DNA of 34,130 nucleotides from Candidatus Azobacteroides sp. (lineage in GTDB: Bacteria > Bacteroidota > Bacteroidia > Bacteroidales > Azobacteroidaceae), in assembly GCA_009783445.1 (NCBI GenBank), contig WRFY01000101.1:1-34130 (forward strand), given 5' to 3'. Below are positions 2,415-21,251 of this stretch, one piece after another. How positions within the stretch are numbered: the stretch's first letter is position 1; each line of letters begins with the position of its first letter. Both the position numbers and the translations under genes were made by a program. Below the pieces are notes generated by a model, which had not been told where the DNA came from, did not search any database, and saw only the letters and a list, made by a program, of their open reading frames with translations.

Positions 2415-2486
2415 ATTCTTTTTGTTTTTTATATGAATATTTTTCCAATATAATGTTTCAAAATAGGCGATTTTTCTAATATTTTG

Positions 2487-2494: not shown

Positions 2495-2508
2495 CAGTAA
2501 AAAAGAAT

Positions 2509-4007: not shown

Positions 4008-4023
4008 TTTCTTTTTCTTTCCT

Positions 4024-5409: not shown

Positions 5410-5437
5410 TTTTAAAAATGATTCTTAAATTTTGCCG

Positions 5438-5468
5438 CAAAAATACGATAAATAAACCAAGTATGAAA
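5438..5468 (-). promoter_or_regulatory. Promoter of the aspartokinase operon
   Basis: Minus strand: -7 box TATTTTTG (5445-5438), with TTTC 19 bp upstream (5468-5465) at the place of the TTTG -33 element. The spacing fits the Bacteroidetes consensus; the -33 box has one mismatch. Confidence 0.5.
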
Positions 5469-5481
5469 ACATACCGTTTGG
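5457..5481 (-). terminator. Possible weak terminator of the Flx-like operon
   Basis: Between the stop of the last Flx-like gene (5500) and the aspartokinase there is a hairpin, GTATG-AAAA-CATAC with outer CCAA/TTGG pairs. On the minus strand it is followed by an interrupted T-rich stretch. It overlaps the aspartokinase -33 region. The stem is short, so the call is tentative. Confidence 0.3.
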
Positions 5482-5499
5482 AAAGATTTTGGCGAATCG

Positions 5500-7342: not shown

Positions 7343-7345
7343 AGA

Positions 7346-8134
7346 CTATACAATAAAATTTTCTTTATCATCCGGTTTAAATGTAGATAGCACATTGCCT
7401 TTTTCGTCCGGTTCTCCAAAGTTTTCTTTCACTGCTTCCGCCATTTTGTGCGACAACAGATGAATGGGGATTCCCACCGGACAGGCAGCGCCGCAAGCGC
7501 CGCAATCGGAACAACGTCCCGCCATGTGCATCACGCGATTGATTTGCCAGTCCATATTGCTAAAGACGCTTGCCCAAGGCTGGATCCATTGCGGACGATT
7601 GATTTCAACAATACATTTTGTGCAGTAACACATCGGACAAGCCGCGCGGCAGGCATAGCATTTGAAGCATCTCGATAATTCTTCCGTCCAAAACGCCCAG
7701 CGTTCAGAAACAGTCATCGCGTCGATTTTCCGAACCCATTCCTCCTCATCGGCCTTGGCCGGCGCCGACATTTCTTTCAAGCGTTGCTTTATTTCTTCAA
7801 GGGATTGGAGTAATTGTATTTCGCCTTTTTCCGAAAGCGTAATGATACGAAGATGATCTTCTTTTAATTGATTTTCGTCAAATAACAGTATTATATTTTT
7901 TAATGTATAATACGATGCCGCTATTCCAACTTTTTTCCCTTCAACCAAATCTTTCCGCGTCAGGTAAACCGCTAAATTTCCGGAACAATTTTCATTGAAA
8001 ATCAATTTACCAGCCTCTTCTGCCTTCGACACAAAAGCCGGCCGCGGTTTGCGCGTACCCTTTTCATATCCGATGAAAATATCAATGGTTTTATTTTCCA
8101 ATAACGATTGGACTTGACTTATAAGATCATTCAT
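7346..8134 (-). CDS. FlxC-like 4Fe-4S ferredoxin-domain subunit
   Basis: A 262-residue iron-sulfur protein. The N-terminal half (LVEGKKVGIAASYYTLKNIILLF) resembles the FrhB-like region of such subunits. The C-terminal half carries a cysteine-rich segment, CFKCYACRAACPMCYCTKC, and a second motif, CSDCGACGAACPVGIP, enough for at least two clusters plus extra cysteines. It contributes the internal electron wire between the NADH-oxidising flavoprotein and the MvhD-like subunit. The start overlaps the stop of the D gene by 8 bp. The exact FlxC identity is inferred from operon order; the protein could also be called a generic 4Fe-4S dicluster protein. Confidence 0.8.
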   Translation of the reverse strand: MNDLISQVQSLLENKTIDIFIGYEKGTRKPRPAFVSKAEEAGKLIFNENCSGNLAVYLTRKDLVEGKKVGIAASYYTLKNIILLFDENQLKEDHLRIITLSEKGEIQLLQSLEEIKQRLKEMSAPAKADEEEWVRKIDAMTVSERWAFWTEELSRCFKCYACRAACPMCYCTKCIVEINRPQWIQPWASVFSNMDWQINRVMHMAGRCSDCGACGAACPVGIPIHLLSHKMAEAVKENFGEPDEKGNVLSTFKPDDKENFIV

Positions 8135-8606
8135 GCTGTTCCTCCATTTCTTTCCTTGCTTCCGTTGGACTGTCGGATAAAAAGTTGGCTACTCGATGGT
8201 ATTCGGTATAAGGGCCTAATTCGCGCAGGCCAGCTACTGTTTCATTTACAAGCTCCGCCCATTTGGCTCCTTCGGCTGCCGATACCCAGGAGAAACAGAT
8301 ACGTCGGATGTCAATTCCCAGAAAGTCGAGTAAACTTCGGAACAACATCCATCGGCGGCGGGCATGAAAATTACCCGAAGTGTAATGGCAATCATTGGGA
8401 TGACACCCTGAAACGATTACCCCATCCATTCCATTAGCAAAAGCTTTGAGTATCAGCATAAAATCGATTCGCCCTGTACAGGGAAAGCGGAGAATCTTCA
8501 CATTCGAAGCATACTTGATGCGGCTCGTACCTGTTAAATCGGCTCCCGTGTAAGTACACCAATTGCAAACAAAAGCCAATACTTTGGGTTCAAATTCGTT
8601 AGTCAT
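8127..8606 (-). CDS. MvhD/FlxD-like hydrogenase iron-sulfur delta subunit
   Basis: A 159-residue protein of the MvhD family, which hands electrons to heterodisulfide-reductase-type (HdrA) partners. The family hallmarks are all present: FVCNWCTYTGADLTGTSR near the N-terminus, ILRFPCTGRIDFMLILKAF, and VSGCHPNDCHYTSGNFHARRR with the conserved Cys and His residues that bind a [2Fe-2S] cluster. It is the first gene of the four-gene operon; a TAACTTTG -7 box lies about 30 bp upstream. In FlxABCD-HdrABC systems the partner HdrABC is normally encoded next door; none is found in this window. Confidence 0.9.
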   Translation of the reverse strand: MTNEFEPKVLAFVCNWCTYTGADLTGTSRIKYASNVKILRFPCTGRIDFMLILKAFANGMDGVIVSGCHPNDCHYTSGNFHARRRWMLFRSLLDFLGIDIRRICFSWVSAAEGAKWAELVNETVAGLRELGPYTEYHRVANFLSDSPTEARKEMEEQHE

Positions 8607-8636
8607 GTCGACGGTATGATTTATCTTTTATTGTTG

Positions 8637-8644
8637 CAAAGTTA
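8637..8644 (-). promoter_or_regulatory. -7 box of the Flx-like operon
   Basis: The minus strand reads TAACTTTG, a perfect TAnnTTTG match, about 31 bp upstream of the MvhD-like start. I see no clear TTTG at the -33 position. Confidence 0.45.
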
Positions 8645-8804
8645 ATTGAAATACTTGGATTACCAGCTCTTACGGATCAATTTTTCTTTCAAGCATAGCC
8701 GTTAATTTTTTTATTTTTGTTTCGAATCAAAGATGTTCGCGTTAAACGTCTTCGACATTTATACTTAGACAAAATAAAAAAAGATAAAAAAAACAGAGTA
8801 AACA

Positions 8805-8835
8805 TTTGTTAGTTAGTAAAAAAATATTATATTTG
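8805..8835 (+). promoter_or_regulatory. Promoter of the M23-like/ROK operon
   Basis: TTTG (8805-8808), 19 bp, then TATATTTG (8828-8835): a full match to the Bacteroidetes -33/-7 promoter. The predicted start of transcription is near 8842, leaving about 30 nt of AT-repeat leader before the ATG at 8871. Confidence 0.8.
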
Positions 8836-8870
8836 CGATTGATTGTTTTACTTAATATATATATATATAC

Positions 8871-9470
8871 TTGGAAAAAAAGATTATGATAGGAACGTCA
8901 ACACCTCAAGTAATTTTTCCGTTATTAGTTAAACCTTTAAACGATAAAGATAGCGCTTTGTATCCCAATCGCTATTGGGCGGAAGCGGCGAGCAGCAATA
9001 GCGCCACTTTTGGTTCGTCGAGAGGAGAACGAAGGCACGCAGGACGCGACCTCTACGGAAAAGAATTGGAAACAGCGGTAGTAGCCATGTGTGATGGAAT
9101 TGTTTTATACAACAACAGTTTTTATAATGCAACCAATGAAGTTGTAATCTTACATGCAACAAGGGATGGACGAAGATTCATCATTCGATACGGAGAAGTC
9201 TCTCCTTTTTCTGTTAAAGTCAAAGTGGGAGAACAAGTAGTGCAAGGACAAGAAATAGCTAAGATTGGACGTTTGACCCCCGCAGTAACCATTGACTGTA
9301 AAAAAACAAATATGCTTCATCTCGAGTACTACGAGGGGAGCGCAGGATTTGATTTGAGAAAAGCCCTCACAGACAGAAATTCATTCAATGCCTACAAAAG
9401 AAGAACCGATATAGCCGATCCATTGAATCTATTGATAGAAGGATATAATAATACGTTTAATATAGCATAG
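8871..9470 (+). CDS. M23 (LytM-like) domain protein, probably catalytically dead
   Basis: A 199-residue protein with the lysostaphin/LytM beta-sheet fold. In active M23 peptidases zinc is held by HxxxD and the second His of HxH, and two further histidines act in catalysis. Here the zinc ligands are visible as H56-x3-D60 (RRHAGRDLYG) and H150 (MLHLEYYEG). The catalytic His of the YAHLS motif is replaced by Glu (YGEVS, E109), and the first His of HxH is Met (M148). No signal peptide is visible. I infer a non-hydrolytic, possibly carbohydrate- or regulator-binding role. The gene has its own strong promoter and is followed 6 bp later by the ROK kinase, so the two probably act together. The fold is confident; the function is unknown. 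Confidence 0.75.
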   Translation: MEKKIMIGTSTPQVIFPLLVKPLNDKDSALYPNRYWAEAASSNSATFGSSRGERRHAGRDLYGKELETAVVAMCDGIVLYNNSFYNATNEVVILHATRDGRRFIIRYGEVSPFSVKVKVGEQVVQGQEIAKIGRLTPAVTIDCKKTNMLHLEYYEGSAGFDLRKALTDRNSFNAYKRRTDIADPLNLLIEGYNNTFNIA

Positions 9471-9476
9471 AGGAAG

Positions 9477-10439
9477 ATGAATATACAATATGTAATTGGA
9501 GTGGATATGGGAGGGATCAATACTCCTATCCGGGTGATTGACGCAAGAGGAAATATCCTATGCGGAAGCCACCTATTTACAGGCGACTATTCCACGGGAG
9601 AAGAATATGCGGAAGCCTTGGGAAATGCTATCAACGAGATGATCGAAAAGAACGATTTGCAAGGCAAAATCAAGGGAATCGGCATGGGAACGCCTAATGG
9701 CAATATGAATGAAGGAACGATTGAAAAAGCGGCCAATATCCCATGGGCAAAGACCGTAGTCGTTCCGATAGCCCGGATGGTTACGGAGAAAACCGGCTTG
9801 CCCTGCCGATTGACTAACGATGCCAACGCCGCAGCTTTAGGCGAAATGATTTACGGAGCGGCCAAAGGAATGAAAGATTTTATTGTGATTACCTTGGGAA
9901 CGGGCGTAGGCAGCGGAATCGTTTCCAACGGTCAATTGGTGGTGGGACACGACGGATTTGCCGGCGAATTGGGACATGTCACTGTCGTTCGCCACAACGG
10001 ACGTCTTTGCGGCTGCGGCCGCAGCGGTTGCTTGGAAACGTACGCTTCGGCAACAGGCGTAGCGAGAACGGCTCGCGAGTTTTTGGATTTGTTTCCCGAA
10101 CGGGAATCCGAATTAAGAACGATCAGCTTTCGCCCGATTACTTCCAAAGATGTTTTTGAGGCCGCTGAAAAAGGAGATGAATTGGCAATCGACATTTTTA
10201 ATTTTACGGGGAAAATATTGGGAACCGCATTTTGCGATTTTATTGCTTTCTCCAGTCCGCAAGCCATCATTCTTTTCGGGGGGTTAGCCCAGGCAGGAAA
10301 TTATTTGCTGAAGCCCATCCTTGAAGAAATAGACCGTCATGTATTGAGCGTGTATAAAGGAAAAACAAAAGTTATTTTGTCTCAATTAAAAGGTGCGGAA
10401 GCGGCTCTTCTGGGCGCCAGCGCATTGGCTTGGGAATAA
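9477..10439 (+). CDS. ROK-family sugar kinase (glucokinase-like)
   Basis: A 320-residue cytoplasmic kinase predicted to phosphorylate a hexose or amino sugar with ATP. Features in order: phosphate-binding loop GVDMGGIN (8-15), catalytic Asp in LTNDANAAALGE (D115), adenosine-motif region TLGTGVGSGIV (139-149), sugar-binding E164 and H167 in FAGELGH, and the ROK zinc motif CGCGRSGC (178-185). There is no N-terminal helix-turn-helix, so it is a kinase and not a repressor. The first loop is atypical: GGINTPIRVID instead of GGTN-type sequences. It lies 6 bp after the M23-like gene, with AGGAAG directly before the ATG. Glucokinase is the likeliest activity, but N-acetylmannosamine, allose or fructose kinases cannot be excluded. 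Confidence 0.85.
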   Translation: MNIQYVIGVDMGGINTPIRVIDARGNILCGSHLFTGDYSTGEEYAEALGNAINEMIEKNDLQGKIKGIGMGTPNGNMNEGTIEKAANIPWAKTVVVPIARMVTEKTGLPCRLTNDANAAALGEMIYGAAKGMKDFIVITLGTGVGSGIVSNGQLVVGHDGFAGELGHVTVVRHNGRLCGCGRSGCLETYASATGVARTAREFLDLFPERESELRTISFRPITSKDVFEAAEKGDELAIDIFNFTGKILGTAFCDFIAFSSPQAIILFGGLAQAGNYLLKPILEEIDRHVLSVYKGKTKVILSQLKGAEAALLGASALAWE

Positions 10440-10455
10440 AGTATCCGTTAATGTC

Positions 10456-10502
10456 AAAAAAATAGCGATCGAAGAGACGCGGGATCAGCCTCTTCGATCG
10501 CT
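10456..10502 (-). terminator. Intrinsic terminator between convergent genes
   Basis: A perfect 13-bp inverted repeat (10464-10476 with 10490-10502, starting AGCGATCGAAGAG) with a 13-nt loop. On the minus strand it is followed by a run of seven T (10462-10456), directly after the stop of the barrel gene. It may also stop transcripts from the ROK operon, although the plus side lacks a T tract. Confidence 0.8.
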
Positions 10503-10504
10503 AA

Positions 10505-11590
10505 TTAAAACCAATTATCCCAGAGATAACGATATTTTTGTTCGTTTTTTTTGTTGCTCAGATTATTCAGATCGAAAGAAGCATACAAGGCTTGCGACTG
10601 ATATAGGCTCTTTTCAGTAGAATGAAAAGAATAAATGAATTTCAGTTTTACTACGCTTGAATGAATCAATTGAATGTAAAAATCAGCACGATTGTATTCT
10701 TTTGAACGATAGATCGGATCCCCCCAATACAGTTGGTTGCTGTAAGCGTTGTAAAACGCCTGCTGCCGGCCTCCCTTGTAATAGGTATTGAACAAACCCA
10801 ATCCCCGATATTCTATCTTTAATTCCGAAAGCAAACCTTGCGGTTTATTCCATACGCCGGCATCGCGGTCGCGGTCGAGCCCCATAGACCATCCCACTTT
10901 GGCTTCCAAGACTTCAAAATCGGCCGCTGAAGCCAAATCAACGCCTAAAGAGGTCAACAACAAACCATTATCATGAACAGATTCTGTAGTATCCGCTTTC
11001 ATCGTTTTTGCAAAATGAAACATATAAGCCAAATGTTCCGCATAAAAGGGTCCCCGCTGATAGCGTCCAGACCAACCCATAAAAAAAGATTCACGCTGTT
11101 GAGACGTCTGCCGACCGACCCAATCCAACCATATATTGGCGTAATTTTTATCGGAATAAATTTCCCAAAAGAAACCATTCAAAACCGGACGATAATTCTG
11201 AATAGAATCCTGAAAAAACATGCGAGGATATTGATCCAATAACCCTCGACGAGGAAAAGCGCCCATGTAAAAACGAAACGGCTTGCCGTCGTATTCATAA
11301 TAAATGACAGGATCGTAATAATCAATTGCTTTATTACTTCCATATTCGTGCAGGATGTCCACTCCCGCAAAAATACGGTGCTTATTTTGCCAACTTAAGC
11401 CTATTTCGGGCGCCAAATGAACGCCTGCCATTGTTTGAGACATTTGAACGGACGAGCGGCCAAACTCTGTGTTGTCGAAAAAAGAACGAACATTGGCTTT
11501 CCATACCATCTCCTGGCTAAAAACGGATGAAGTATAAATGGAAGTAAAAATAAGAAACAGAATGCAATAATTTTTTAGCATCAATACCAT
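10505..11590 (-). CDS. Predicted outer-membrane beta-barrel protein, function unknown
   Basis: A 361-residue protein with an N-terminal signal peptide (a hydrophobic stretch ending at VFSQ; the Met four residues in may be the true start). The rest alternates polar and aromatic residues in short amphipathic strands (AGVHLAPEIGLSWQNKH, FFMGWSGRYQRGPFYAEHL, ADFYIQLIHSSVVKLKFIY), as expected for an outer-membrane barrel. I do not recognise the family. A TACCTTTA element (a -7 box with one mismatch) lies upstream at 11612-11605. The gene stands alone on the minus strand and ends in a strong hairpin terminator. Its neighbourhood to a ROK kinase and a GH9 enzyme suggests a carbohydrate-related role, but there is no motif proof. 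Confidence 0.7.
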   Translation of the reverse strand: MVLMLKNYCILFLIFTSIYTSSVFSQEMVWKANVRSFFDNTEFGRSSVQMSQTMAGVHLAPEIGLSWQNKHRIFAGVDILHEYGSNKAIDYYDPVIYYEYDGKPFRFYMGAFPRRGLLDQYPRMFFQDSIQNYRPVLNGFFWEIYSDKNYANIWLDWVGRQTSQQRESFFMGWSGRYQRGPFYAEHLAYMFHFAKTMKADTTESVHDNGLLLTSLGVDLASAADFEVLEAKVGWSMGLDRDRDAGVWNKPQGLLSELKIEYRGLGLFNTYYKGGRQQAFYNAYSNQLYWGDPIYRSKEYNRADFYIQLIHSSVVKLKFIYSFHSTEKSLYQSQALYASFDLNNLSNKKNEQKYRYLWDNWF

Positions 11591-11748
11591 AAAAAAGTTT
11601 TGCGTAAAGGTAGGAAAAAAACCAAAATGATCGAGTAAAGAAGATCAGAAAGTAATGGATACTTTCCGGATGTTTTTACAAAAATGTTAATATACAATAA
11701 TTTGTAGACAATTTATAAAAAAAAGAAAAGAGAAAAACGGCTTGATTT

Positions 11749-11780
11749 TTTGCTTGAATCAAAATTCTTTTCTATTTTTG
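11749..11780 (+). promoter_or_regulatory. Strong promoter in the 11.6-12.2 kb gap
   Basis: TTTG (11749-11752), 20 bp, TATTTTTG (11773-11780): a full consensus match. It points into a region without a long ORF and implies transcription starting near 11787. Confidence 0.75.
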
Positions 11781-11801
11781 CAGTAGATTTAATGTTATGC
11801 T

Positions 11802-11981
11802 ATGACTTTTTTTCTGAAAAATAATCTCCAGCCAGTATTTTTAACCGTTCAAAAATTGCGTATTATCGAGCGAGAAAATAGTTTGTTTATAAGAATGATA
11901 GGCAGAAAGACCTATCATTTTAGGAAGCATGATATCCTCTCTGAAGAAAAGCGGATTTTATATCACATAAGAGGAATATAA
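11802..11981 (+). CDS. Possible 59-residue basic peptide
   Basis: An ATG-to-TAA frame, MTFFLKNNLQ to ILYHIRGI, rich in Lys, Arg and Ile/Leu/Phe, starting about 15 nt after the inferred transcription start. Its stop codon lies inside the left arm of the terminator stem, so termination and translation would interfere. I find no motif or membrane helix. It may be a chance frame inside a structured RNA; the main support is that it lies exactly between a promoter and a terminator. Confidence 0.3.
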   Translation: MTFFLKNNLQPVFLTVQKLRIIERENSLFIRMIGRKTYHFRKHDILSEEKRILYHIRGI

Positions 11982-12020
11982 ATTTTCTGTCCAGATCATT
12001 TATATTCCTCTTATTTTTTT
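11967..12020 (+). terminator. Strong intrinsic terminator
   Basis: A perfect 17-bp stem (11967-11983 with 11998-12014, beginning ATAAGAGGAATATAAAT), a 14-nt loop, then a run of seven T. Confidence 0.85.
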
Positions 12021-12048
12021 GCTCTTATCTTTAGAAAAAGAAAAAACT

Positions 12049-12175
12049 CTGAGGCAGCATTGCTTAAACGGAGTTCTCCTGTGCAAGGGAATGCAGTTAA
12101 AGTAGTATTGGTTGTTTCCTGACTTGCACTTTAAAATCAAGGAACAAGGTTTTGATCAATAAAGCGCTGCCTCAG
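12049..12175. ncRNA. Folded RNA-like element with 6S-like architecture
   Basis: Closing stem CTGAGGCAGC/GCTGCCTCAG (12049-12058 with 12166-12175, 10 bp perfect). It encloses a large bubble and an apical stem GTGCAAG-GGGAA/TTTCC-TGA-CTTGCAC (12081-12092 against 12115-12129). One side of the bubble carries a bulged hairpin ATCAA..AAC/GTT TTGAT (12136-12156); the other carries a mini-hairpin GGA-GTTC-TCC (12071-12079). This closing stem, open bubble and apical stem layout is that of 6S RNA. T runs follow the closing stem on both strands (TTGTTTTT on plus; TTTTTT then TTTTT on minus), so the strand is undecided. On the plus strand a near-consensus TATCTTTA lies at 12026-12033. It could alternatively be the 3' end of the GH9 transcript. 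Confidence 0.35.
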
Positions 12176-12211
12176 TTGTTTTTAAAAACGCAAACAGATC
12201 AAATCTTCTGC

Positions 12212-14788
12212 TTACAGTTTTATGAACTTTTCCCGAAAATTATTTATTACAATGAAATAAGCGCCTTGCGCCAGTTGGGATATGTTGATCGTTTTCCCTG
12301 AAAGGACGCCGGACGCTATTTTCATTCCTGTAACGCTGTAAATCGTATAGGAAGTTCCATCCGGCACATCCGATATTTGAATGATTTCATTGGCCGGAAC
12401 CGGATAGATATGAAGCGCATTCCTGTTTTTTGCCAGCAAGATGCCTTCCCCCATGCCGGTATGTTGTTTGGCCGGACTAATGGCATGCAAATATCCGTAT
12501 AAAGCCGTTTTCCCGCGCATAGATTGCTGCGGGGTAAATTCATTGGCTGCATACACATAACGGGTATTGTAATAGAGTTCGCCATAAGGCCAGCTATCCA
12601 CCGCAGGATAGTTTTTACTGGTCATCCAGGTAGGACATCCCATAATCAGCCCGCCCCAATCGTATTGATTCATGTAAGGCGTATGTCCCGGATGAACGCC
12701 CGGAGTTCCATCGTTCCAACCGGAAGTATAAGCATTCTCGATGCTTCTTTTGTCGGCCAAACCGGTCGTAGCAATAGTCATGTGAATCCGATTCATGGGA
12801 TTGCGTCCGAGAGAGAAATCGGCTTCGAGGATCAAGGCATTTTCAAATAAGGCTTTGTCGTCGCTCCCTTCCGAAGATAGGGCATGGGCAATAATCGTTC
12901 GTTCATTATTGATGACAGTAATAAACCAACCGGTATCGTTGTCCGTTGATCGGCGCGAAGGGCGGGAAGTGGAATAATTGGCTTCTTTGGATTTGGCTTC
13001 GCGAATAATAGCGCTTTTCATATTATTATAGAGCGCCGGATAGTTTACCTTCTGGTTGGTAAAAAGATAACCGGCTAAGGCATAGATTTCATTGAATGAA
13101 TCGGGGTCCCATACGGTCGAAGTCGATGACGTACACCGGCTAAACGCATTCAGATCATCCTCATATCGGGTATCTCCGGTTAAGTTGTAGAGGAATGCGG
13201 CGGCTGTGATCCGAAAATCTTTACCGGTCATGACCATCTCTCCTACATCCTGAGTTTTGTCGAGCAAAGGGTCCGGCAGACTGCTGGCATAAGAATAAGC
13301 GTTTTTTGCGCTGTCGCAATATTCCGCCATCCAATCGGTATGTCCAGAAATGCGGAAACAATCGGCCAACAGGGCCGCATTGGCGGCATTGGCCCAAGCG
13401 GCCACAGCGCTCGTACCGGCTTGATAAAATACATTTTGACTGTTCGGATTATTGAGTCCATGACTGTAACCCCTGCCATCGCGCAAGCGCAACCAAAAAT
13501 CGACTTCATTGCGGGCTTCGTCGAGCAGGTCGGGAATGCCGTTTCCGCTTTCTGTAATACCCAGATTATCCTCCGAAAGCGCTCCTCCGGTGAGGTAGTA
13601 AGGCAACAGCATATCATAAATAATGGAGACATGACCCAGATGGCGATCCCAATCGAAAGCGTCTGCATGTCCGCCATACGCATTCGGATTGGTTGGATTT
13701 CCGGGTTTGCAGTAGGCGGTCCACAGGGTGGTATTGTCCCAAGGGTCTCCTCCTGAAGCGGGCCAGTGGGAATCGTAGGGTTGTAAAGTAGTTATATAGA
13801 CCGTACAATTGACCGGAGAAACTCCCGGTATATACAACGGACGGCGCGGAACCGGAACGATGTCCAAATTGTCTTCTCCGATACGCATATAATAAAAACC
13901 TTGCGTAGAGACTTTAAAAGGCTCGTAATAAATAGCGTCGCTGATGGTAAAATCGTCGCTGCATCCGATGTCTTCCACCGCCAGCCGATAGGTTCCGGGA
14001 GTATTAAATCCTGTAAAATCCGCTTTCCACACATTGGTTCGAAGCATTTGATGATTGTGGCGCGTTTCTCCTGCAGCCTGTTTCCACAGGGAAAGCGTTC
14101 CCACGGATTGGCTTTCTTGGGTAGCTGTATTGTAGATATAAATTTTTTTGCCCTCAAAAGAAGAATAGTCGCGCGAGCCGCCATCTCCCATCCAGAGATA
14201 AACGTCAGCCGCCTTAATGCTGTTGGCTGTTGAGTAACCCACAATATTTACTTTAACGGCTTCGCTCCGGCTCTGGAAGATATCGAAGGTAAGCGTTTGA
14301 GTTGCAACATCGCTATTCGCGTCGATGGGTATATGGATCGTATAACTTTTTCCGGATTGCATCGCTTGAGGTAATTTTAGAAAAAGCGTGTGTTCGTACG
14401 CCCAGTCGTATGTAAAATCATTTGCTGCGGTAGACCAGGCCATTTGAGCCATACAACCCAACTTCGATTTTCGGTAAACGGTTGAAGGACTAATGCCTTG
14501 TCCTCCAAAAGCAGGATCGTCGGTCGACGTAATCTTCCAATGGTCGGCTATTGCAGCATTCGCAGTATTCAGGAGAGAACCATAAGTGGTCAGGCTATTT
14601 TCCGAGGCACAATTTGCATAAAGGGCGCATCCTGAAGCCGCGCCTTCGTTAAAGGAAACGTCTCCATCCCGGAAATAGAGCATAAGGTAGTCTTTATCTA
14701 AGATTCCGGCCGATACAAGTTTAGAAGCCGATACCGTAACTGCCTGAAATAGCAAAGAGATAGTAATGAATAATTGAACTTTTTTCAT
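12212..14788 (-). CDS. Secreted GH9 glycanase (cellulase-type) with T9SS tail
   Basis: An 858-residue exported glycoside hydrolase predicted to cut beta-1,4-glucan or a related glycan outside the cell. Order: signal peptide MKKVQLFITISLLFQAVTVSA; N-terminal region; CelD_N-type Ig-like domain (about 165-290, ending GTYRLAVEDIGCSDDFTIS); GH9 (alpha/alpha)6 domain; C-terminal T9SS type A sorting domain (about 785-858, IYPVPANEIIQISDV to AQGAYFIVINN). GH9 acidic residues are visible in GGHADAFDWDRH (about 372-383, the DAGD-equivalent with F for G) and in YAANEFTPQQ (E near 748, the likely acid); SLGRNPMNR marks the family C-terminal region. No SusC/SusD genes adjoin it, so it is not in a typical polysaccharide utilisation locus. 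Substrate could be cellulose, xyloglucan, mixed-linkage glucan or, less likely, glucosamine oligomers. Confidence 0.92.
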   Translation of the reverse strand: MKKVQLFITISLLFQAVTVSASKLVSAGILDKDYLMLYFRDGDVSFNEGAASGCALYANCASENSLTTYGSLLNTANAAIADHWKITSTDDPAFGGQGISPSTVYRKSKLGCMAQMAWSTAANDFTYDWAYEHTLFLKLPQAMQSGKSYTIHIPIDANSDVATQTLTFDIFQSRSEAVKVNIVGYSTANSIKAADVYLWMGDGGSRDYSSFEGKKIYIYNTATQESQSVGTLSLWKQAAGETRHNHQMLRTNVWKADFTGFNTPGTYRLAVEDIGCSDDFTISDAIYYEPFKVSTQGFYYMRIGEDNLDIVPVPRRPLYIPGVSPVNCTVYITTLQPYDSHWPASGGDPWDNTTLWTAYCKPGNPTNPNAYGGHADAFDWDRHLGHVSIIYDMLLPYYLTGGALSEDNLGITESGNGIPDLLDEARNEVDFWLRLRDGRGYSHGLNNPNSQNVFYQAGTSAVAAWANAANAALLADCFRISGHTDWMAEYCDSAKNAYSYASSLPDPLLDKTQDVGEMVMTGKDFRITAAAFLYNLTGDTRYEDDLNAFSRCTSSTSTVWDPDSFNEIYALAGYLFTNQKVNYPALYNNMKSAIIREAKSKEANYSTSRPSRRSTDNDTGWFITVINNERTIIAHALSSEGSDDKALFENALILEADFSLGRNPMNRIHMTIATTGLADKRSIENAYTSGWNDGTPGVHPGHTPYMNQYDWGGLIMGCPTWMTSKNYPAVDSWPYGELYYNTRYVYAANEFTPQQSMRGKTALYGYLHAISPAKQHTGMGEGILLAKNRNALHIYPVPANEIIQISDVPDGTSYTIYSVTGMKIASGVLSGKTINISQLAQGAYFIVINNFREKFIKL

Positions 14789-14824
14789 TTGGAGAAAATT
14801 TTTATATGTTGATTAAAATCGCTT

Positions 14825-14854
14825 CAAAATTAATCATTTTTTTGACAAAACAAA
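14825..14854 (-). promoter_or_regulatory. Promoter of the GH9 gene
   Basis: Minus strand: TTTG (14854-14851), 18 bp, TAATTTTG (14832-14825). The -7 box is perfect; spacing is one base shorter than usual. It lies about 37 bp upstream of the ATG. Confidence 0.6.
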
Positions 14855-15306
14855 TATTGCTTGTTAAATAATTGATGTAGATAAAATTAAGAGAGACTAC
14901 GGCATCCCAAAGGGTGGGATGTAAAAAATGTAAGTTTATTTTTTAGAAAATACGTTCAATTGATCAATTTCTTGTCTATTAACCTTTATTTCCAATCAAT
15001 TAATAAGGGAATAAGAGGGATATGTGCCTTATACTTGGCTACTAAAGGAGCTTTTTAAAATAAAGTTAATAAAAAAACACGAAAAAATTTTGATGCACAG
15101 GCTGCATTTTTACAGCTCACGCGAAGGCTTGCAAGCTCAGTAAAAAATAGTCATTTCTATCTCCTTTGCTCGTCTGTGGCATGCAACTTAAAATCCTCTG
15201 TAAAATTTATTACTTCAAAATATATAAATATATTATAAAACTTTGCAAATAAATTAATGAACATTCAATTTAAAAAACAATTATATAATTGATAATCAAA
15301 TGATTT
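14855..15306. other. Non-coding region with a degraded repeat copy
   Basis: No gene is seen. It holds a hairpin CATCCCA/TGGGATG (14903-14909 with 14915-14921) whose flank, read in reverse, matches the CATTTTTTTACATCCCAC stretch ending the repeats near 32420. It also holds one degraded copy of the dispersed repeat (14975-15112). For the plus-strand operon, only a 7/8 -7-like AAACTTTG (15238-15245) is visible. Confidence 0.6.
14975..15112 (+). repeat. Degraded copy of the dispersed palindromic repeat
   Basis: The sequence from TCTATTAACC to GCATTTTT follows the same order as the copies at 31757-32030 and 32141-32405: a CAATCAATTAATAAGGGAATA block, then CTACTAAAGGAGCTTTTTAAAATAAAGTTAAT, then CACGAAAAA..GATGCAC..GCATTTTT. 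It lacks about 60 bp of the left arm (the AAAAGCTCCCTT region), so the terminal palindrome is lost. Confidence 0.7.
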
Positions 15307-16554
15307 ATGAAAATTGAAGTACTAAAATATATACAAAGGAATCTAACGAGAAAGAAAAAACAAACATTTTTTACGATGTTCTGTATTTTAATTTCCTCTT
15401 TTATCCTATTAGAAAATCGGGCGCTCAATAACGGGATTCAATTCAAATTAAAAGAGGGAATCAATCAGGCGATATCCGGCCAATTGACCATATATTGTAG
15501 CAATGAGGCAAAAATCAATATCATAGAATCGCAATTAAAGGATCAAAAACCTTTTCCATGGAATGCCGAAAATACAGAAATGGTCAAACAAATCGATCCA
15601 AACTTAACTATTAACAATCGAATACGATTTAGCTCTTTAATATCGTATGAAGAAGAAACCTCTTTTGTCAATATTCACGCCATCGAGGATGACCACTTCA
15701 AACGAATCCAAAATTTAATAACCCTGAAAGAAGGGACTATCCCGAAAAATAACGAGGGCATTCTCATAAGCGAGACGTTGGCCAATGATCTGCATTGCGG
15801 CATTGGCGATACCCTGCTGCTGGTTGCCGACAATTTGAACGACTATATGAGCGATGAAATTGTACCCGTTAAAGGAATTTTCATGGAAGCCGGCCTTACT
15901 TCCTTTTTTGCTTATTCTGCTTTCCTACCCTATTCATTGGGGAAAGAAATCGTTCAGCTCGAAGACGGAAACAGTTTGGAATTGATCATCAATTCATCAA
16001 CCCGCACGGACATTTCGGACAAAACAATACAGAAGATTCATCAGTATTTGGCAGGTATTTCCTTCGATATCCAGGCAGCAACTTGGGATCAGACTATTCC
16101 ATTGTTTTATACAATTGCTCATATCTGGAAAACAAGCGGTTATTTAATTCAGGCGCTATTTATCATTTTTAGTTTAATCATCCTGACCAATTTAATATCC
16201 TTGACGGTTTATTCTCGGAAAAAAGAATTCGGGACTTTGCTTGCCATGGGATTTTCTTGGAAAAAGATCACGATGATAATCGGTATGGAATACTTGGTTC
16301 TATGCGTTTTTTCTGTATTGTCGGCATTTATCCTGATCCGTTTACTAAATCTTCTTTTTACTCAAAACGGTTTGTATATTTCCTCCAAAGATATGCAGCA
16401 AGCCCTCCTGACGGAAGTTTTGGTACTGTTTTTAAATAGCAAAGATTTGATTAATACCTTGACGTTGTTTTGCCTAACAATTCTAACGTCTACTCTCTTT
16501 AGTATTTTCAGAATAAAAAAATTAAGTCCAATCCAATTAATAAACAATAAATAA
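15307..16554 (+). CDS. FtsX-type ABC transporter permease (first of pair)
   Basis: A 415-residue inner-membrane permease of the MacB/LolC/LolE type. One N-terminal membrane helix (about 21-40, FFTMFCILISSFILLE) precedes a large periplasmic MacB-like domain (about 45-270). Three C-terminal helices follow (SGYLIQALFIIFSLIILTNL, YLVLCVFSVLSAFILI and FCLTILTSTLFSIF), with the FtsX cytoplasmic coupling loop KKEFGTLLAMGFSWKKI. Such permeases do not carry substrate across the inner membrane but use ATP to move lipids, lipoproteins or small molecules from the membrane or periplasm. It is the first gene of a packed operon; the next permease starts 7 bp later. Its basic N-terminus YIQRNLTRKKKQ is typical of the family. 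Substrate unknown. Confidence 0.9.
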   Translation: MKIEVLKYIQRNLTRKKKQTFFTMFCILISSFILLENRALNNGIQFKLKEGINQAISGQLTIYCSNEAKINIIESQLKDQKPFPWNAENTEMVKQIDPNLTINNRIRFSSLISYEEETSFVNIHAIEDDHFKRIQNLITLKEGTIPKNNEGILISETLANDLHCGIGDTLLLVADNLNDYMSDEIVPVKGIFMEAGLTSFFAYSAFLPYSLGKEIVQLEDGNSLELIINSSTRTDISDKTIQKIHQYLAGISFDIQAATWDQTIPLFYTIAHIWKTSGYLIQALFIIFSLIILTNLISLTVYSRKKEFGTLLAMGFSWKKITMIIGMEYLVLCVFSVLSAFILIRLLNLLFTQNGLYISSKDMQQALLTEVLVLFLNSKDLINTLTLFCLTILTSTLFSIFRIKKLSPIQLINNK

Positions 16555-16561
16555 AATAAAT

Positions 16562-17809
16562 ATGGGGTTATTCATTCAATTGGCTGTACGGAATGTACAA
16601 CGATATGCAAAATCGAGTATTTTGAATGGCATCGGCATTTCTCTTTGTACCATCGTAATCCTCCTTATATTTGCAATATCCGAAGGAATCGAAACACAGA
16701 TTGTATCTCGAAATATAAAATTTGAAACAGGGGCGCTATCGATTGATTTCGAGAAAAAAACAACAAGCATGCAACATCAAGCAGAAGGCGACAGCCTTTT
16801 CCAAAAGATTCTAATATTGTTGAACAACAATGAAGACATTCAGAATTATGCTTTCCGCATTTATCCATCCAATTCCCTCTTATATTTTGGCGAAAATTCA
16901 CAACGAATTAATCTCATCGGTATTTCTGAAAATGAAAATTCGTTAATAAATGAAATACTTAAAATAACCGAAGGAAGTTCGGAATTACAAAAAGACGAAA
17001 AAACAATATTGATTAGTTCCGGTCTGTCCGAATTGTTAAACCTAAAAAAGAACGATCCATGCAATTTGATGGTGCAATCGCCGGATGGCGCCATTAATTT
17101 GGATAATTTCGAGGTAACAGGAATTTTCAGATATACTTCGCAAATGAACAAGTTTACAGTCTACCTGAATTACGATCAAGCAAAAGAACTTTACTATTGC
17201 AATCTGCCATCCAAAATAATAATTACGCTAAATCAGTTAGATAAAGCAAATCAAGTAAAGCAAGACTTAGCCGATCAACTAAAATGTCAATGTCCGGAAG
17301 AAGGAAAAGAAGCTCAATGCAACGGATACCGTATTTCATCCTATAAAGATCATTCAGGGATGGCTAAAACGTTGTCGGGAATCAATAAACAGGGCATGTC
17401 GAGCATAGCGCTTTTTCTAATCCTGATTTCATTTGTGGGTATTTGGTCGATGCAGACCGAAAATATAAATGAACGCAAACCAGAAATCGGTTCGCTATTA
17501 TCATTTGGGTTTCCGCGTTCTTCCATAAAGAAAATATTTTTTTATGAATCGATGATGATCAGTATGCTATTTTTTATTGGCGGGATTTTCATTGTTTTGA
17601 TTTCCCTTTTTTTAATCCATAATCAAAATGGCATTTACCTTGGAGACTCGGCGTCGTTTGCCTTTGGATCAGCGATTGTAAACCCGATACTTTCCGTAAA
17701 GGATGTATTCATTTCATTCATTATTGTGCTGGCTTACCCTTTATTGGCTACTGTTATTTCTCTCAATTCAATTAATAACGCAAATATTATCCATATATTA
17801 AAAAATTAA
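16562..17809 (+). CDS. FtsX-type ABC transporter permease (second of pair)
   Basis: A 415-residue paralogue of the upstream permease with the same layout: N-terminal helix (about 20-36, ISLCTIVILLIFAISEG), periplasmic domain, and three C-terminal helices (IALFLILISFVGIWSM, MMISMLFFIGGIFIVLISLFLI and ISFIIVLAYPLLATVISL). The FtsX coupling segment is RKPEIGSLLSFGFPRSSI. Two non-identical subunits of equal length suggest a heterodimer, as in LolCE. A small insertion with CQCPEEGKEAQC (about residues 241-252) carries three cysteines in the periplasmic domain, which could form a disulfide. It ends 5 bp before the LolA-like gene. Like its partner it depends on the ATPase at the end of the operon. 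Confidence 0.9.
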   Translation: MGLFIQLAVRNVQRYAKSSILNGIGISLCTIVILLIFAISEGIETQIVSRNIKFETGALSIDFEKKTTSMQHQAEGDSLFQKILILLNNNEDIQNYAFRIYPSNSLLYFGENSQRINLIGISENENSLINEILKITEGSSELQKDEKTILISSGLSELLNLKKNDPCNLMVQSPDGAINLDNFEVTGIFRYTSQMNKFTVYLNYDQAKELYYCNLPSKIIITLNQLDKANQVKQDLADQLKCQCPEEGKEAQCNGYRISSYKDHSGMAKTLSGINKQGMSSIALFLILISFVGIWSMQTENINERKPEIGSLLSFGFPRSSIKKIFFYESMMISMLFFIGGIFIVLISLFLIHNQNGIYLGDSASFAFGSAIVNPILSVKDVFISFIIVLAYPLLATVISLNSINNANIIHILKN

Positions 17810-17814
17810 AATTC

Positions 17815-18516
17815 ATGAAACCGATCGTTTTATTTTTATTTATGCTATCCCCTTTTTTGAATCATTACAAAGAAGTAGATTACTTAGAGCTTTTAGACAA
17901 ATCCATCTATTGCGAACAGGCCAATATACGAATGGAAGTATATAAGGACAACAAAGAAATGAAATTCTACGAAATGGAATTTTACCGCTTAAACGAAAAA
18001 ATGAGGATGGAATTCACTGCTCCAGCTACTGAAAAGGGGCGACGAATGCTCAATGACCATTCAAGTCTTTGGATGTACTTGCCCAGAACAAGCAAAGTAA
18101 TGAAGTTGCCTTTTAAACAATCTTTTATGGGTAGCGACGCATCCAATTCCGATTTAATGCGAATGACTTTTAAGAAGGATTATGAAATAACGAATGCCTC
18201 AAAAAAAGAAAGTAATCGAATCGAATTGGAGCTAAAAGCAAAAGACAGGGAAGTTTCGTACAACAAGGTACTAATTACGTTCGATACCGAAAAAAAAGTT
18301 CCTGTCAAACAGGAAATGTACAGTTTATCAAACAAATTGATAAAAACGCTCCTGTATGATAAAGTGGTATCGGTTGATGGAGAATATATCCCTTCCGAAC
18401 TTACGATCCACGATGAATTGCAGTCAAATTCTTCAACCAAGTTATCCTACACAAACATAAAGAAAAAGGGAAATAAACCGACTGAATTCTTCACGCTTGG
18501 TTCGTTAAAAAAATAA
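17815..18516 (+). CDS. LolA-like outer-membrane lipoprotein-sorting family protein
   Basis: A 233-residue periplasmic carrier candidate with an N-terminal hydrophobic export signal (IVLFLFMLSPFL) and no lipobox Cys. The body matches the LolA-like outer-membrane lipoprotein-sorting family often encoded beside exporters: alternating beta strands with MRMEFTAPATEKGRRML, SSLWMYLPRTSKVMKLP, the FMGSDASNSDLMRM segment and a C-terminal SELTIHDELQSNSSTKLSYTNI sheet region. LolA-fold proteins bind acyl chains in an open barrel, so it could ferry a lipid or lipopeptide from the FtsX pair to the barrel encoded next. The gene is 5 bp after the second permease and 2 bp before the barrel gene, indicating one pathway. 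Confidence 0.85.
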   Translation: MKPIVLFLFMLSPFLNHYKEVDYLELLDKSIYCEQANIRMEVYKDNKEMKFYEMEFYRLNEKMRMEFTAPATEKGRRMLNDHSSLWMYLPRTSKVMKLPFKQSFMGSDASNSDLMRMTFKKDYEITNASKKESNRIELELKAKDREVSYNKVLITFDTEKKVPVKQEMYSLSNKLIKTLLYDKVVSVDGEYIPSELTIHDELQSNSSTKLSYTNIKKKGNKPTEFFTLGSLKK

Positions 18517-18518
18517 AG

Positions 18519-19709
18519 GTGAAAAACTTTAAATTACATAGCGTCCTTATATTTTGGTTTGCCCTGAACAATTTATCCAGTTTATTCTCTCAATCGTCCA
18601 AATTTTCGTATCAGTTGATTTTAGAAACAAAAGAAGAATATAATGCAATAGATCCTAATTCATTGGTAAATCCGGATAATATTTTAGAATTAAACGAGAT
18701 CAATTCTACTACTCAACTTTATCCAATTTTTACGCTGAACAATCTCTCAAACGGGATCAATACTCAATTGCAAATCGAAGCGGATATTCGAAATTATGAC
18801 TTTGAAAAAGAACGTACCGACTTCTTCTTTCAGGAATTATATACCCAATTTTCATCCAAAGACAAACACTATTGGACCATAGGGAAGAAAAGATTGGATT
18901 GGGGAAGCGGAATGATCTGGAATCCCACCAATTTTTTCATCCAAAAAGATCCGTTGAGAACTCAAAACCGACTGGAAGGTCTTTTTATGATCAACTATAC
19001 TTATTTGCTGAAGAACCATGCTTTCCATTTTTATTTATTTCCAGAAGAAAAAAAAGAAGATTGCAGTTTGGCTCTAAAATACGATTTCTCCAAGAATCGG
19101 ATAGACGCTGGATTTTCTTTGGTTGAATACAAAAAATATCAACAATTCGGCTATGAATTCTCGTATGGAGGAGACCAATTCACGGCTTATTCAGAAGGAG
19201 TAGTCAAAAATTATACAAAAAGTTACCAAGTGAATGAAACCGGAGAGCTTATCGAACCCAATTCCTCTAAAAAGAAGTTCAGAGTTGAATTAGCGGCTGG
19301 AGGAATGATCTTGCTGAATGATCATTTTACATTTAGTTGCGAATACCGCTTCCGAGAAGATTATCTGAATTCAAAAGAAATTGCTTTCTATAAAGCTCAA
19401 TTACCTTCCTATTCCGTGCTATTTGATCCGATAAGCATGGGGCAACACACATTCTTTGGAAGCATGGAATATAAGGATATTTATGGAAGGGGATCGGTAA
19501 ACGTACGTACTTTTTATGATCCGGTTTCCCGGCAGCTTCTTATTTCTCCTTGGGGAATAATAAGCAGAAATAATTTTCAAATCGAATTATCGGTTCTATT
19601 TTACAATCATTCGTTTGCAATATACGATTTTCAAAGTTCAATACTCATAAGTTATTTTTTTAAAACAAAAAGCGATGGATACATTCATAAAATTGAAAAA
19701 TATCAATAA
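18519..19709 (+). CDS. Predicted outer-membrane barrel of the exporter operon
   Basis: A 396-residue protein starting at GTG (18519), 2 bp after the preceding stop. It has a signal peptide (SVLIFWFALNNLSSLFSQ) and then repeated amphipathic strands rich in Tyr, Phe and Asn (HYWTIGKKRLDWGSGMIWNP, NYTYLLKNHAFHFYLFPEE, YQQFGYEFSYGGDQFTAYSEG). The IGKKRLDWGSG..NPTNFF segment resembles DUF1302-type barrels that accompany LolA-like proteins and RND/MMPL exporters, but this is a weak, remembered similarity. It is probably the outer-membrane end of the exporter. The last 35 bp overlap the start of the ATPase gene, so the two are translationally coupled. Confidence 0.75.
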   Translation: MKNFKLHSVLIFWFALNNLSSLFSQSSKFSYQLILETKEEYNAIDPNSLVNPDNILELNEINSTTQLYPIFTLNNLSNGINTQLQIEADIRNYDFEKERTDFFFQELYTQFSSKDKHYWTIGKKRLDWGSGMIWNPTNFFIQKDPLRTQNRLEGLFMINYTYLLKNHAFHFYLFPEEKKEDCSLALKYDFSKNRIDAGFSLVEYKKYQQFGYEFSYGGDQFTAYSEGVVKNYTKSYQVNETGELIEPNSSKKKFRVELAAGGMILLNDHFTFSCEYRFREDYLNSKEIAFYKAQLPSYSVLFDPISMGQHTFFGSMEYKDIYGRGSVNVRTFYDPVSRQLLISPWGIISRNNFQIELSVLFYNHSFAIYDFQSSILISYFFKTKSDGYIHKIEKYQ

Positions 19710-20333
19710 ATACTACTTGAATGGAAGTGTAAAGAATCAAGTTCTCGACAACTTTTCGTGTGAATTCCAAGAAGGTTGTTTCACGGTTTTAGCCGGTCCA
19801 TCCGGTTCCGGAAAGTCATCATTGTTAAATATTTTGGCCGTATTGGATACTCCAAACAGCGGCGAATATTTTTTGAGAGGAAAATGGGTTGATTTCAACA
19901 AAAAAAAAAATTAATCCAATTGCGAAAAGATAATTTTGGATTTGTTTTCCAGTCATTTAACTTGATTCCCGTACTCAATGCCATTGAAAATGTTGAATTG
20001 CCGTTAACGTTGTTTGAATACACTAAAAAGGAACGATGGGAAATGTCGGAAAGAGCGCTAAAATTAGTCGGATTGGAGAACAAATTAAAAAGTCGCCCCG
20101 GAGAACTTTCGGGAGGGGAGCAACAACGCGTTGCCATCGCCAGAGCTATTGCCAGACATCCCCAAGTGGTATTCGCTGATGAACCGACAGCCAATTTGGA
20201 TAAAAAGAATGCATGGAATATTATCGCATTGATGAAGCAATTAAATGAAAACGATAGGATTAGTTTCATTGTTGCAAGCCATGATGAAAAAGTAATTCAT
20301 GCAGGAAAAGAAGTTCTGCAGTTGGGCGAGTAA
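19675..20333 (+). CDS. LolD/MacB-type ABC ATPase, frame broken at an A11 run
   Basis: The ATPase that would power the FtsX pair. The first part (19675-19914) has Walker [10 protein letters not shown] (41-49). The second part (in frame from before 19920 to 20333) has the Q-loop [24 protein letters not shown], signature [16 protein letters not shown], Walker [13 protein letters not shown] and switch His in VASHDE. The break is at 11 A (19900-19910). In the zero frame it ends KKKN-stop; a -1 shift (or 12 A) reads [18 protein letters not shown], which is the expected continuation of the family. All catalytic motifs are therefore intact and the total length (about 220) is normal. Causes could be a sequencing error, a polymorphic tract, or transcript/ribosome slippage that restores the protein. 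Confidence 0.88.
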
Positions 20334-20353
20334 ATCATTTAAAATAAATATGT

Positions 20354-20361
20354 TATATTTG
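20354..20361 (+). promoter_or_regulatory. -7 box of the membrane protein/regulator pair
   Basis: TATATTTG, a perfect -7 match, 25 bp before the ATG at 20387. No clear -33 TTTG is seen. It suggests that the two following genes have their own promoter, distinct from the exporter operon. Confidence 0.5.
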
Positions 20362-20386
20362 CAACAAAATAAAATAAGCGAAAACG

Positions 20387-20980
20387 ATGCAAGAAAAGAG
20401 ATTAAATGAAGCAGAAAGTCTGGAGCTAATCACCGCCATGATCCATAATGCGCGGACTAATTTGCGGGCAAGAATTAACTGTACCATTTTATTGGTATGG
20501 GGATACACAATTACGTTCATTTCGCTACTACTCTATATAGTAAAGAAATATGAATTATCTTCGTATTCTTCTTTGCTGTGGTTTTTGATTCCTCTGATCT
20601 GTTATCCGACGACAAAATTTCTTTATTCAAGAGATACAACTCATATTAAATCGTATTTAGACAAAATAATTGATTATATCTCCCTGCTATTTATTATTAT
20701 TTGCTCGGTAATGGGTTTGACCGTCATCTGGATTTATTTCCCCATACTCTTTATTGAAGGCATACTATTCAATATTTGGATTCTTATCATAGGCATCTTA
20801 ATCAAATACAAAGTGATTATTTGGGGAGGTATTATTGGAATTATTCTTTCATATAGTCTATTATTTGTTTCCGGAGAAATACATCAAATACTTATTTTTG
20901 GCCTAATCTCTGTTTTTTCAATTATCATACCGGGGCATTTTTTAAAAAATTCTATTTCAAAAAATGTTCAAAGAGCTTAA
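20387..20980 (+). CDS. Polytopic membrane protein partnered with a winged-helix regulator
   Basis: A 197-residue protein with a short cytoplasmic helix (QEKRLNEAESLELITAMIHNAR) and then about six hydrophobic segments (INCTILLVWGYTITFISLLL, SLLWFLIPLICYPTTKFL, YISLLFIIICSVMGLTVIWI, ILFNIWILIIGILI, VIIWGGIIGIILSYSLLF, QILIFGLISVFSIIIPGHFL). I do not recognise a named function. Its last 17 bp overlap the start of a winged-helix regulator, an arrangement that suggests the membrane protein and regulator form a sensing or control pair, perhaps for the preceding exporter. No catalytic motif is visible. Confidence 0.75.
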   Translation: MQEKRLNEAESLELITAMIHNARTNLRARINCTILLVWGYTITFISLLLYIVKKYELSSYSSLLWFLIPLICYPTTKFLYSRDTTHIKSYLDKIIDYISLLFIIICSVMGLTVIWIYFPILFIEGILFNIWILIIGILIKYKVIIWGGIIGIILSYSLLFVSGEIHQILIFGLISVFSIIIPGHFLKNSISKNVQRA

Positions 20981-21248
20981 TCCCCTGTTGCATTCTCGGT
21001 TGCGTTTAGCCATTATGTCGCTTCTTGTCTCCATCCAAGAAGCCGATTTTATGTATATCATGGAACAAACCCAGGCAACAGGAGGAAACCTGAGTATTCA
21101 AGTTGAAAAATTATCTGAAGCCGGATACATTGAAACTACCAAATCTTTCAAGGACAAAAGGCCTTGTACCACCTGCAAAATTACGCCCAAAGGACTAAAA
21201 GCATTTGAAGAATACGTGGAAACGTTAAAATCGTATATTCAGAAATAG
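20964..21248 (+). CDS. Small winged-helix transcriptional regulator
   Basis: A 94-residue protein consisting of one winged-helix DNA-binding domain of the HTH_34/ArsR-MarR-like type: HSRLRLAIMSLLVSIQEADF as helix 1-2, TGGNLSIQVEKLSEAGYIE as helix-turn-recognition helix, and KRPCTTCKITPKGLKAFEEY as wing and dimer helix. The CTTC pair in the wing could bind metal or sense redox, though such cysteines are not a family requirement. It overlaps the upstream membrane protein by 17 bp. It is probably an autoregulator or regulator of the exporter operon upstream. Confidence 0.88.
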   Translation: MFKELNPLLHSRLRLAIMSLLVSIQEADFMYIMEQTQATGGNLSIQVEKLSEAGYIETTKSFKDKRPCTTCKITPKGLKAFEEYVETLKSYIQK

Positions 21249-21251
21249 GAA

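Follow-up and report, generated by a model that had tools for sequence, protein, structure and literature searches.

Does an operon that joins a Lol-type pump to a periplasmic carrier and a barrel-like protein of its own encode a route for exporting a lipid-like molecule, and is such an operon peculiar to one genome or part of a common system? The question is raised by five consecutive genes on the plus strand of a Candidatus Azobacteroides sp. contig (WRFY01000101.1, positions 1 to 34,130; this whole stretch of 34,130 nucleotides is referred to as the window), which an original prediction had described, from the sequence alone, as a complete trans-envelope exporter comprising two FtsX permeases, a LolA-like carrier, an outer membrane barrel, and a LolD-like ATPase. 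We found that all five components occur together in 58 of 79 sampled Bacteroidota loci; the combination is real, in support of the main idea of the original prediction, and any idea that it is peculiar to this locus has to be given up. The description of the exporter as complete did not survive: the ATPase reading frame changes at a run of 11 adenines (A11), and the locus as sequenced, with four open genes and one gene split by the frameshift, is not a complete machine. The window carries a damaged or recoded copy, and the conserved set to which this copy belongs is the larger finding. With moderate confidence, we read the operon as a divergent member, probably gained by horizontal transfer, of a five-gene exporter type common in Bacteroidota, which would use a Lol-type pump to pass an acyl- or polyketide-type amphiphile via the carrier to the barrel.

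A recurrent set of pump, carrier, and barrel-like genes

Four samples of gene neighborhoods were scanned with hidden Markov models (HMMs) built from fetched proteins, i.e., the 19 top LolA matches (L033-L051), 20 weaker LolA matches (L164-L183), 20 barrel matches mostly from the upper part of a phylum search (L095-L114, including a second copy from the genome of the window, L095), and 20 further, mostly weaker barrel matches (L184-L203). Two FtsX permeases, a LolD-like ATPase, a LolA_like carrier, and a barrel-like protein were all present in 15 of 19, 13 of 20, 15 of 20, and 15 of 20 of these loci, respectively; the loci were hand-picked by similarity to the window's proteins and their kin, and the fractions apply to these families and not to LolA-like genes as a whole. 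The refuting case named in the original prediction, carrier and barrel homologs usually unlinked from FtsX genes, was not borne out: all five are linked in 28 of the 39 loci chosen by LolA and in 30 of the 40 chosen by the barrel. The same HMMs found at most one of the five in each of 12 control loci that had been fetched for another gene (L134 has an ATPase and a weak MMPL match), and the co-occurrence of the five families exceeds chance. At E ≤ 1e-5, 102 of 395 Bacteroidota genomes have a match to a barrel profile (A5) that was made from six members of the set in the window's order.

Among the 21 remaining loci, six are cut at contig ends (L034, L036, L044, L114, L173, and L177), four have a single component (L048, L166, L103, and L194), one has a carrier and a barrel (L178), and five are without one or more parts, some of them at the end of the stretch (L098, L112, L170, L189, and L192). 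The last five have an MMPL pump and no ATP-binding cassette (ABC) set: L172, L181 (the same place as L059), L188, and L190, recognized by an HMM from two MMPL proteins, and L101, recognized by Pfam MMPL (E 7.9e-39; L059, 6.3e-46). Related LolA-like and barrel genes adjoin the MMPL pump in L059, L101, L172, L188, and L190, bearing out the parallel with MMPL exporters that had been drawn for the operon. The L101 locus also has a TetR regulator.

The same five parts come in at least five gene orders: barrel-ATPase-FtsX-FtsX-LolA (order A), LolA-FtsX-FtsX-ATPase-barrel (order B), the window type FtsX-FtsX-LolA-barrel-ATPase, which is a rotation of order A, LolA-barrel-ATPase-FtsX-FtsX (L191), and LolA-ATPase-FtsX-FtsX-barrel (L180). 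The parts are kept together though their order is reshuffled; therefore, they are most simply taken to be one functional unit. The window locus has the five components side by side, with a barrel gene homologous to those of the set and without an intact ATPase gene.

The version in the window is a rare and divergent clade of the exporter type. LolA-like relatives were found at E ≤ 1e-5 in 195 of 393 genomes of the order, and besides the window's own only that of Dysgonomonas sp. PF1-14 is close (65% identity); a search with a single barrel sequence found relatives at E ≤ 1e-3 in 5 of 386 genomes, one of which is that of the window. A plasmid collection held 19 records with LolA-like matches, all below 60% identity. 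Two window-type loci were found elsewhere, both in Dysgonomonadaceae, namely, in Dysgonomonas sp. PF1-14 (locus L063, genome G308) and in the metagenome-assembled genome Cf509_bin64 (L064). In a LolA tree with 41 rows, a long stem leads to a group of the window, G308, and L064 (100/100); the order-A rows, 19 in all, also group together (99/95), and the 19 order-B rows, including two MMPL-linked ones, do so weakly (76/18).

As the original prediction held, the operon differs from both LolCDE-LolA and MacAB-TolC, having a carrier and a barrel-like gene of its own together with a Lol-type pump. With LolCDE-LolA it shares a carrier of the LolA superfamily and a type VII ABC pump in which a LolD-type ATPase is joined to two FtsX-type permeases; however, it has the barrel-like gene, its carrier belongs to PF17131 and not PF03548, its permeases and ATPase score below the equivalog cutoffs, and no LolB match was found among the proteins Pfam-scanned at the window locus. 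MacAB-TolC shares the MacB-type periplasmic domain and the permease fold, whereas the window has a soluble LolA-like carrier and neither a MacA-type adaptor nor TolC among eight proteins scanned. MMPL/RND exporters with a LolA-like carrier (aryl-polyene, flexirubin, and DUF1302/DUF1329/MMPL systems) share this carrier and, in the five MMPL loci above, a related barrel; they differ in having MMPL instead of an FtsX/LolD-type ABC pump, and DUF1302 matched only 2 of 30 barrels of the family, weakly (best E 5.5e-4), and not that of the window. The closest published analogue that we found is the Borrelia BBJ23-29 cluster, proposed from structure predictions to export a nonpolar ligand (PMC13078400). 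It likewise clusters an ATPase, a MacB-like permease, a LolA-like protein, and an outer membrane barrel; however, the barrel is of the Omp85 family, the single permease is proposed to be homodimeric, there are additional tetratricopeptide repeat (TPR) proteins, and the work is computational only.

Components of the operon and the split ATPase gene

The predicted positions and spacing of the five components were borne out (Table 1), with gaps of 7, 5, and 2 bp separating the genes for FtsX-1, FtsX-2, the LolA-like carrier, and the barrel candidate, and an overlap of 35 bp between the last of these and the ATPase gene.

Table 1. Features of the operon and its surroundings, in positions of the window (ORF, open reading frame)
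Feature	Position	Strand	Basis
FtsX-1, FtsX-family permease, type VII ABC permease half, 415 aa	15307-16554	+	ORF, Pfam
FtsX-2, FtsX-family permease, LolC/E-like, 415 aa	16562-17809	+	ORF, Pfam, NCBIfam
LolA-like periplasmic carrier, 233 aa	17815-18516	+	Pfam PF17131, PDB 3buu
Putative outer membrane beta-barrel, 396 aa, GTG start	18519-19709	+	Profile-profile match, beta-alternation
LolD-like ATPase, N-terminal piece with Walker A, early stop	19675-19914	+	LolD TIGR02211 3.1e-14
A11 run, site of the ATPase frame change	19900-19910	+	Sequence
LolD-like ATPase, C-terminal piece with Q-loop, signature, and Walker B, other frame	19893-20333	+	LolD TIGR02211 1.6e-42
Multi-spanning membrane protein, 197 aa, presumed regulatory pair	20387-20980	+	ORF, hydrophobic segments
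Winged-helix regulator HTH_34, 94 aa	20964-21248	+	Pfam HTH_34 E 2.6e-30
Low-GC stretch with the operon, edges approximate	14800-21250	.	GC profile

Both permeases are placed in FtsX/MacB_PCD by Pfam (FtsX-1, FtsX E 9e-9 and MacB_PCD 3.7e-6; FtsX-2, FtsX E 4.3e-15). Their equal length, noted in the original prediction, is real and carries little weight, as they are only ~19% identical to each other. FtsX-1 is 54% identical to the copy in Dysgonomonas sp. PF1-14. The PDB sequence matches of FtsX-2 are YtrF (7.3e-6 over 101 residues) and LolF (~4e-5 over 265 residues), and for a modest structural model of FtsX-2 (predicted local distance difference test [pLDDT] 57.7), the top Foldseek match was chain E of a LolCDE complex (2.6e-17, TM 0.39), with MacB second; together with the Pfam matches, this match supports a type VII permease fold. 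The carrier matches Pfam LolA_like PF17131 (E 1.3e-39) and PDB 3buu (E 2e-22), and its N-terminus, judged by eye, has a signal-like segment without a lipobox Cys. Against the LolA models, it scores 22.6 (PF03548, cutoff 23.6) and 25.6 (TIGR00547, cutoff 112). Genome-wide, PF03548 alone gave one match, and PF17131 gave two good matches.

Because the barrel HMM had been iterated on its own matches, separately built barrel profiles were compared. The window-type barrels matched the order-B barrels with a probability of 95.5 (E 1.4e-8) and the MMPL-linked barrels with 97.1, and the order-A barrels matched the order-B barrels with 97.6, while FtsX and LolA control profiles remained below 7. The beta-alternation z score is +2.3 for the window barrel and +3.2 and +1.3 for its two close relatives; mean values (up to 12 proteins) are +2.3, +2.4, and +2.9 for the three barrel groups, +1.7 for Wzi, −1.2 for FtsX, and −0.6 for LolA. 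No transmembrane helix segment was found in the window barrel, the N-terminus is signal-like, and the close relatives and most order-B barrels end in Phe. These features suggest that the protein is likely located in the outer membrane. Wzi was considered as its family and rejected, with an hhalign probability of at most 31 over 29 columns. The window barrel ORF extends 15 residues past the Phe where both close relatives terminate; this is why it overlaps the ATPase gene here, while in G308 and L064 the ATPase ATG lies 11 and 12 bp after the barrel end.

The ATPase frame that includes Walker A ends at a stop codon (19912-19914) after 79 codons. The Q-loop, LSGGEQQR, and DEPT motifs are encoded by a second frame, which is open from ~19893 and in which the earliest start codon is a TTG at 19920. 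Both frames are open across the A11 run, which is the sole homopolymer of at least 9 in the window. Each piece matches Pfam ABC_tran and has LolD as its top NCBIfam model (53 and 145.5 bits when scored apart, compared with a cutoff of 307.75). The gene is whole at the corresponding place in both close relatives, and over the 137 codons after the run, the window is 74.5% identical to G308, with proportions of nonsynonymous (pN) and synonymous (pS) differences of 0.17 and 0.88. This conservation is consistent with a recent change, a bypassed change, or a sequencing error, among which the comparison does not distinguish, nor does it date the split. A stimulatory RNA structure 3' of the run was not supported (z −0.92). 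Activity of the exporter in this genome would need a bypass of the frameshift at the run, a LolD-type ATPase borrowed from elsewhere, possibly from the intact related operon on contig C118 of the same genome, or a split that is a sequencing error.

The alternative is recent decay, in which case the operon would be an import without function in this genome. Damage is not confined to the window. Dysgonomonas sp. PF1-14 has the same seven genes in the same order, but its LolA and barrel genes lie ~34.6 kb apart (L032, L057, and L058), and the insert, a transposable prophage of roughly 34 kb, encodes a repressor, a transposase, a transposition protein, and portal, tail sheath, and tape-measure proteins; the initial residues of its barrel are unrecognizable. 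Counting this interruption, damage is seen in two of the three members, and the split ATPase gene and the barrel ORF running beyond the end of its relatives also point to decay. However, the remaining genes in the window are open and conserved, and the conservation of the ATPase piece after the frameshift argues that any decay is probably recent. We consider a functionless import somewhat doubtful.

Close relatives, probable origin, and possible cargo

The third member, in Cf509_bin64, has all five exporter genes intact and gives a hint of a cargo. Here, an acyl carrier protein gene (7124-7387; PP-binding E 9.3e-7) precedes the exporter, and a ketosynthase gene lies on the other side. The surroundings (2339-19025) encode a phosphopantetheinyl transferase, an ABC-2 transporter, FabZ-like, FabG-like, and PIG-L proteins, a family-2 glycosyltransferase, and a 4HBT thioesterase, as well as two ketosynthase-type proteins, one of them just below the PF00109 cutoff, and two BtrH/DUF4872 proteins, the second of which is below both cutoffs. 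The NCBIfam matches, all under cutoff, include DarH in the case of the BtrH-like proteins and FlxB, one name of many, in that of the reductase. The exporter lies within an acyl carrier protein/ketosynthase cluster that resembles aryl-polyene/dialkylresorcinol clusters and whose product is possibly an acyl compound or polyketide. LolA-like carriers beside exporters are described for flexirubin, arcuflavin, and E. coli aryl-polyene clusters (PMC3992019, PMC3949708, and PMC8253772). We favor export, or delivery to the outer membrane, of an acyl- or polyketide-type amphiphile because the Cf509_bin64 cluster puts the FtsX type in the role of such exporters beside LolA-like carriers. For the lipid or lipopeptide export route originally predicted, the cluster gives indirect support to the lipid-like substrate.

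The Lol-like parts could also belong to a second, specialized Lol pathway, in which the pump and the LolA-like carrier sort particular lipoproteins and the barrel exposes them at the surface. That both ATPase pieces score best with LolD, that FtsX-2 matches NCBIfam lolCE (1.3e-13, 50.7 bits), and that its top Foldseek match is a LolCDE chain are in line with this scenario, and lipoprotein transport was proposed as a possibility for the similar Borrelia cluster (PMC13078400). However, the lolCE score lies far under the cutoff of 362.45, and the intact proteins of Cf509_bin64 remain well under the LolCDE equivalog cutoffs as well (ATPase, 218.7 compared with 307.75; FtsX-2, 71 compared with 362.45); the NCBIfam scan lists no lolCE match for FtsX-1; and the carrier is a LolA_like protein just short of the PF03548 LolA cutoff. 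Furthermore, the intact operon lies in a lipid/polyketide-type gene cluster, and related carriers and barrels serve MMPL pumps, which are not known to extract lipoproteins. We consider a dedicated lipoprotein pathway unlikely.

The operon was probably acquired horizontally. This suggestion is based on its low GC content (35.4%, compared with 40.4% for the window, in a dip between about 14.5 and 21 kb), on its nearest relatives being in another family, and on the absence of the close LolA-like carrier from the 20 other genomes among 21 of the family, one of which (G795) has a distant match. None of the 12 stretches of relatives examined showed the gene order that flanks the operon in the window, and no convincing repeats were found at the edges of the low-GC stretch. 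Contig C118 of the same genome carries a second five-gene operon (L095:3781-8826), which is intact and of order B. It is flanked by pyrG/yidC on one side and trmD on the other, and lpxD, lpxC-fabZ, and an lpxA-like gene follow 6-9 kb downstream.

Alternatively, the operon could be an efflux or self-protection module that clears the envelope of a toxic amphiphile and travels, along with its own regulator, on mobile elements. In Dysgonomonas sp. PF1-14, the operon and its regulator pair lie near phage-integrase-family, relaxase, MobC-like, and ParA-like genes, no BtrH_N match was found in that genome, and MacB is among the next matches. In contrast to resistance cargo, the ordinary relatives are widespread, as gauged by the barrel profile, and the C118 copy lies near housekeeping and lipid A genes; moreover, the scan of eight proteins yielded no MacA-type adaptor. 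We regard an efflux module as quite improbable.

Regarding neighboring genes, the predicted pair of a membrane protein and a regulator does follow the operon. The pair (20387-21248) accompanies the operon in both the window and Dysgonomonas sp. PF1-14, with 55% identity between the membrane proteins and 79% between the HTH_34 regulators, and is missing among the ORFs of at least 90 aa adjoining the operon in Cf509_bin64. On the other side of the operon, on the minus strand (12212-14788), lies a gene whose product combines a cellulase N-terminal Ig-like domain with a secretion-system C-terminal sorting domain, and for this product no match at E ≤ 1e-20 was found in the other 20 genomes of the family.

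A working model and its implications

In our model of an acyl- or polyketide-type exporter, the FtsX pair and the LolD-type ATPase would extract an amphiphilic molecule of this type from the inner membrane's outer leaflet, the LolA-like protein would ferry it across the periplasm in its hydrophobic cavity, and the barrel would release or insert it at the outer membrane. Expression would probably be controlled by the membrane protein and the winged-helix regulator encoded behind the operon. The families of the permeases, the carrier, and the ATPase pieces, the conserved clustering, the exchange of the pump for MMPL, and the gene cluster around one relative are observed, while the direction of export, the class of substrate, the topology of the barrel, and the regulation are inferred.

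Several observations weigh against this model. The split ATPase gene counts against a working system in this genome. A biosynthetic cluster is known around one relative, that in Cf509_bin64; also, no BtrH_N match was found in the genome of the window or in G308, which leaves room for a different substrate in the window's genome. The structural model of FtsX-2 is weak, as seen in its pLDDT and TM values and a root mean square deviation of 15. As for the barrel, the window protein has no Pfam match of its own and no significant PDB match (barrel profiles gave no PDB match up to E 10 with 2 sequences, and one chance-level match, E 0.63, with 30), an AlphaFold model from two sequences failed (pLDDT 29.7), direct profile matches between window-type and order-A barrels reach probabilities of only 1.8 and 0.3, and 6 of the 11 order-A barrels listed end in His and not in the usual aromatic residue of outer membrane proteins.

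A search of the open-licence literature, which does not extend to preprint servers and most subscription papers, yielded no account of the five-gene Bacteroidota set. Related arrangements are on record: in Porphyromonas gingivalis and Prevotella intermedia, operons for TetR, MMPL, and outer membrane lipoprotein-sorting proteins respond to iron or hemin (PMC10434189 and PMC10470040), and in Flavobacterium johnsoniae, LolA and LolB are described together with LolA2/LolB2 in the flexirubin operon, the main text being without FtsX (PMC11885536).

We tentatively suggest, as a possibility that falls short of being probable, that these genes represent a phylum-wide class of trans-envelope lipid exporters bridged by LolA-like proteins, in which a dedicated LolA_like carrier and an equally dedicated, as yet unnamed barrel family are combined with an FtsX/LolD ABC pump in some cases and with an MMPL pump in others, serving envelope lipids in the ordinary copies and specialized acyl or polyketide products in the mobile clade of the window. 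To our knowledge, the passage of lipids and lipophilic products through the periplasm and across the outer membrane is poorly understood in Bacteroidota. A conserved set of pump, carrier, and barrel with an exchangeable pump, one copy of which lies in a biosynthetic cluster, makes this question approachable by gene deletion with a measurable product, and it suggests an export route to look for where similar gene clusters are without an MMPL exporter.

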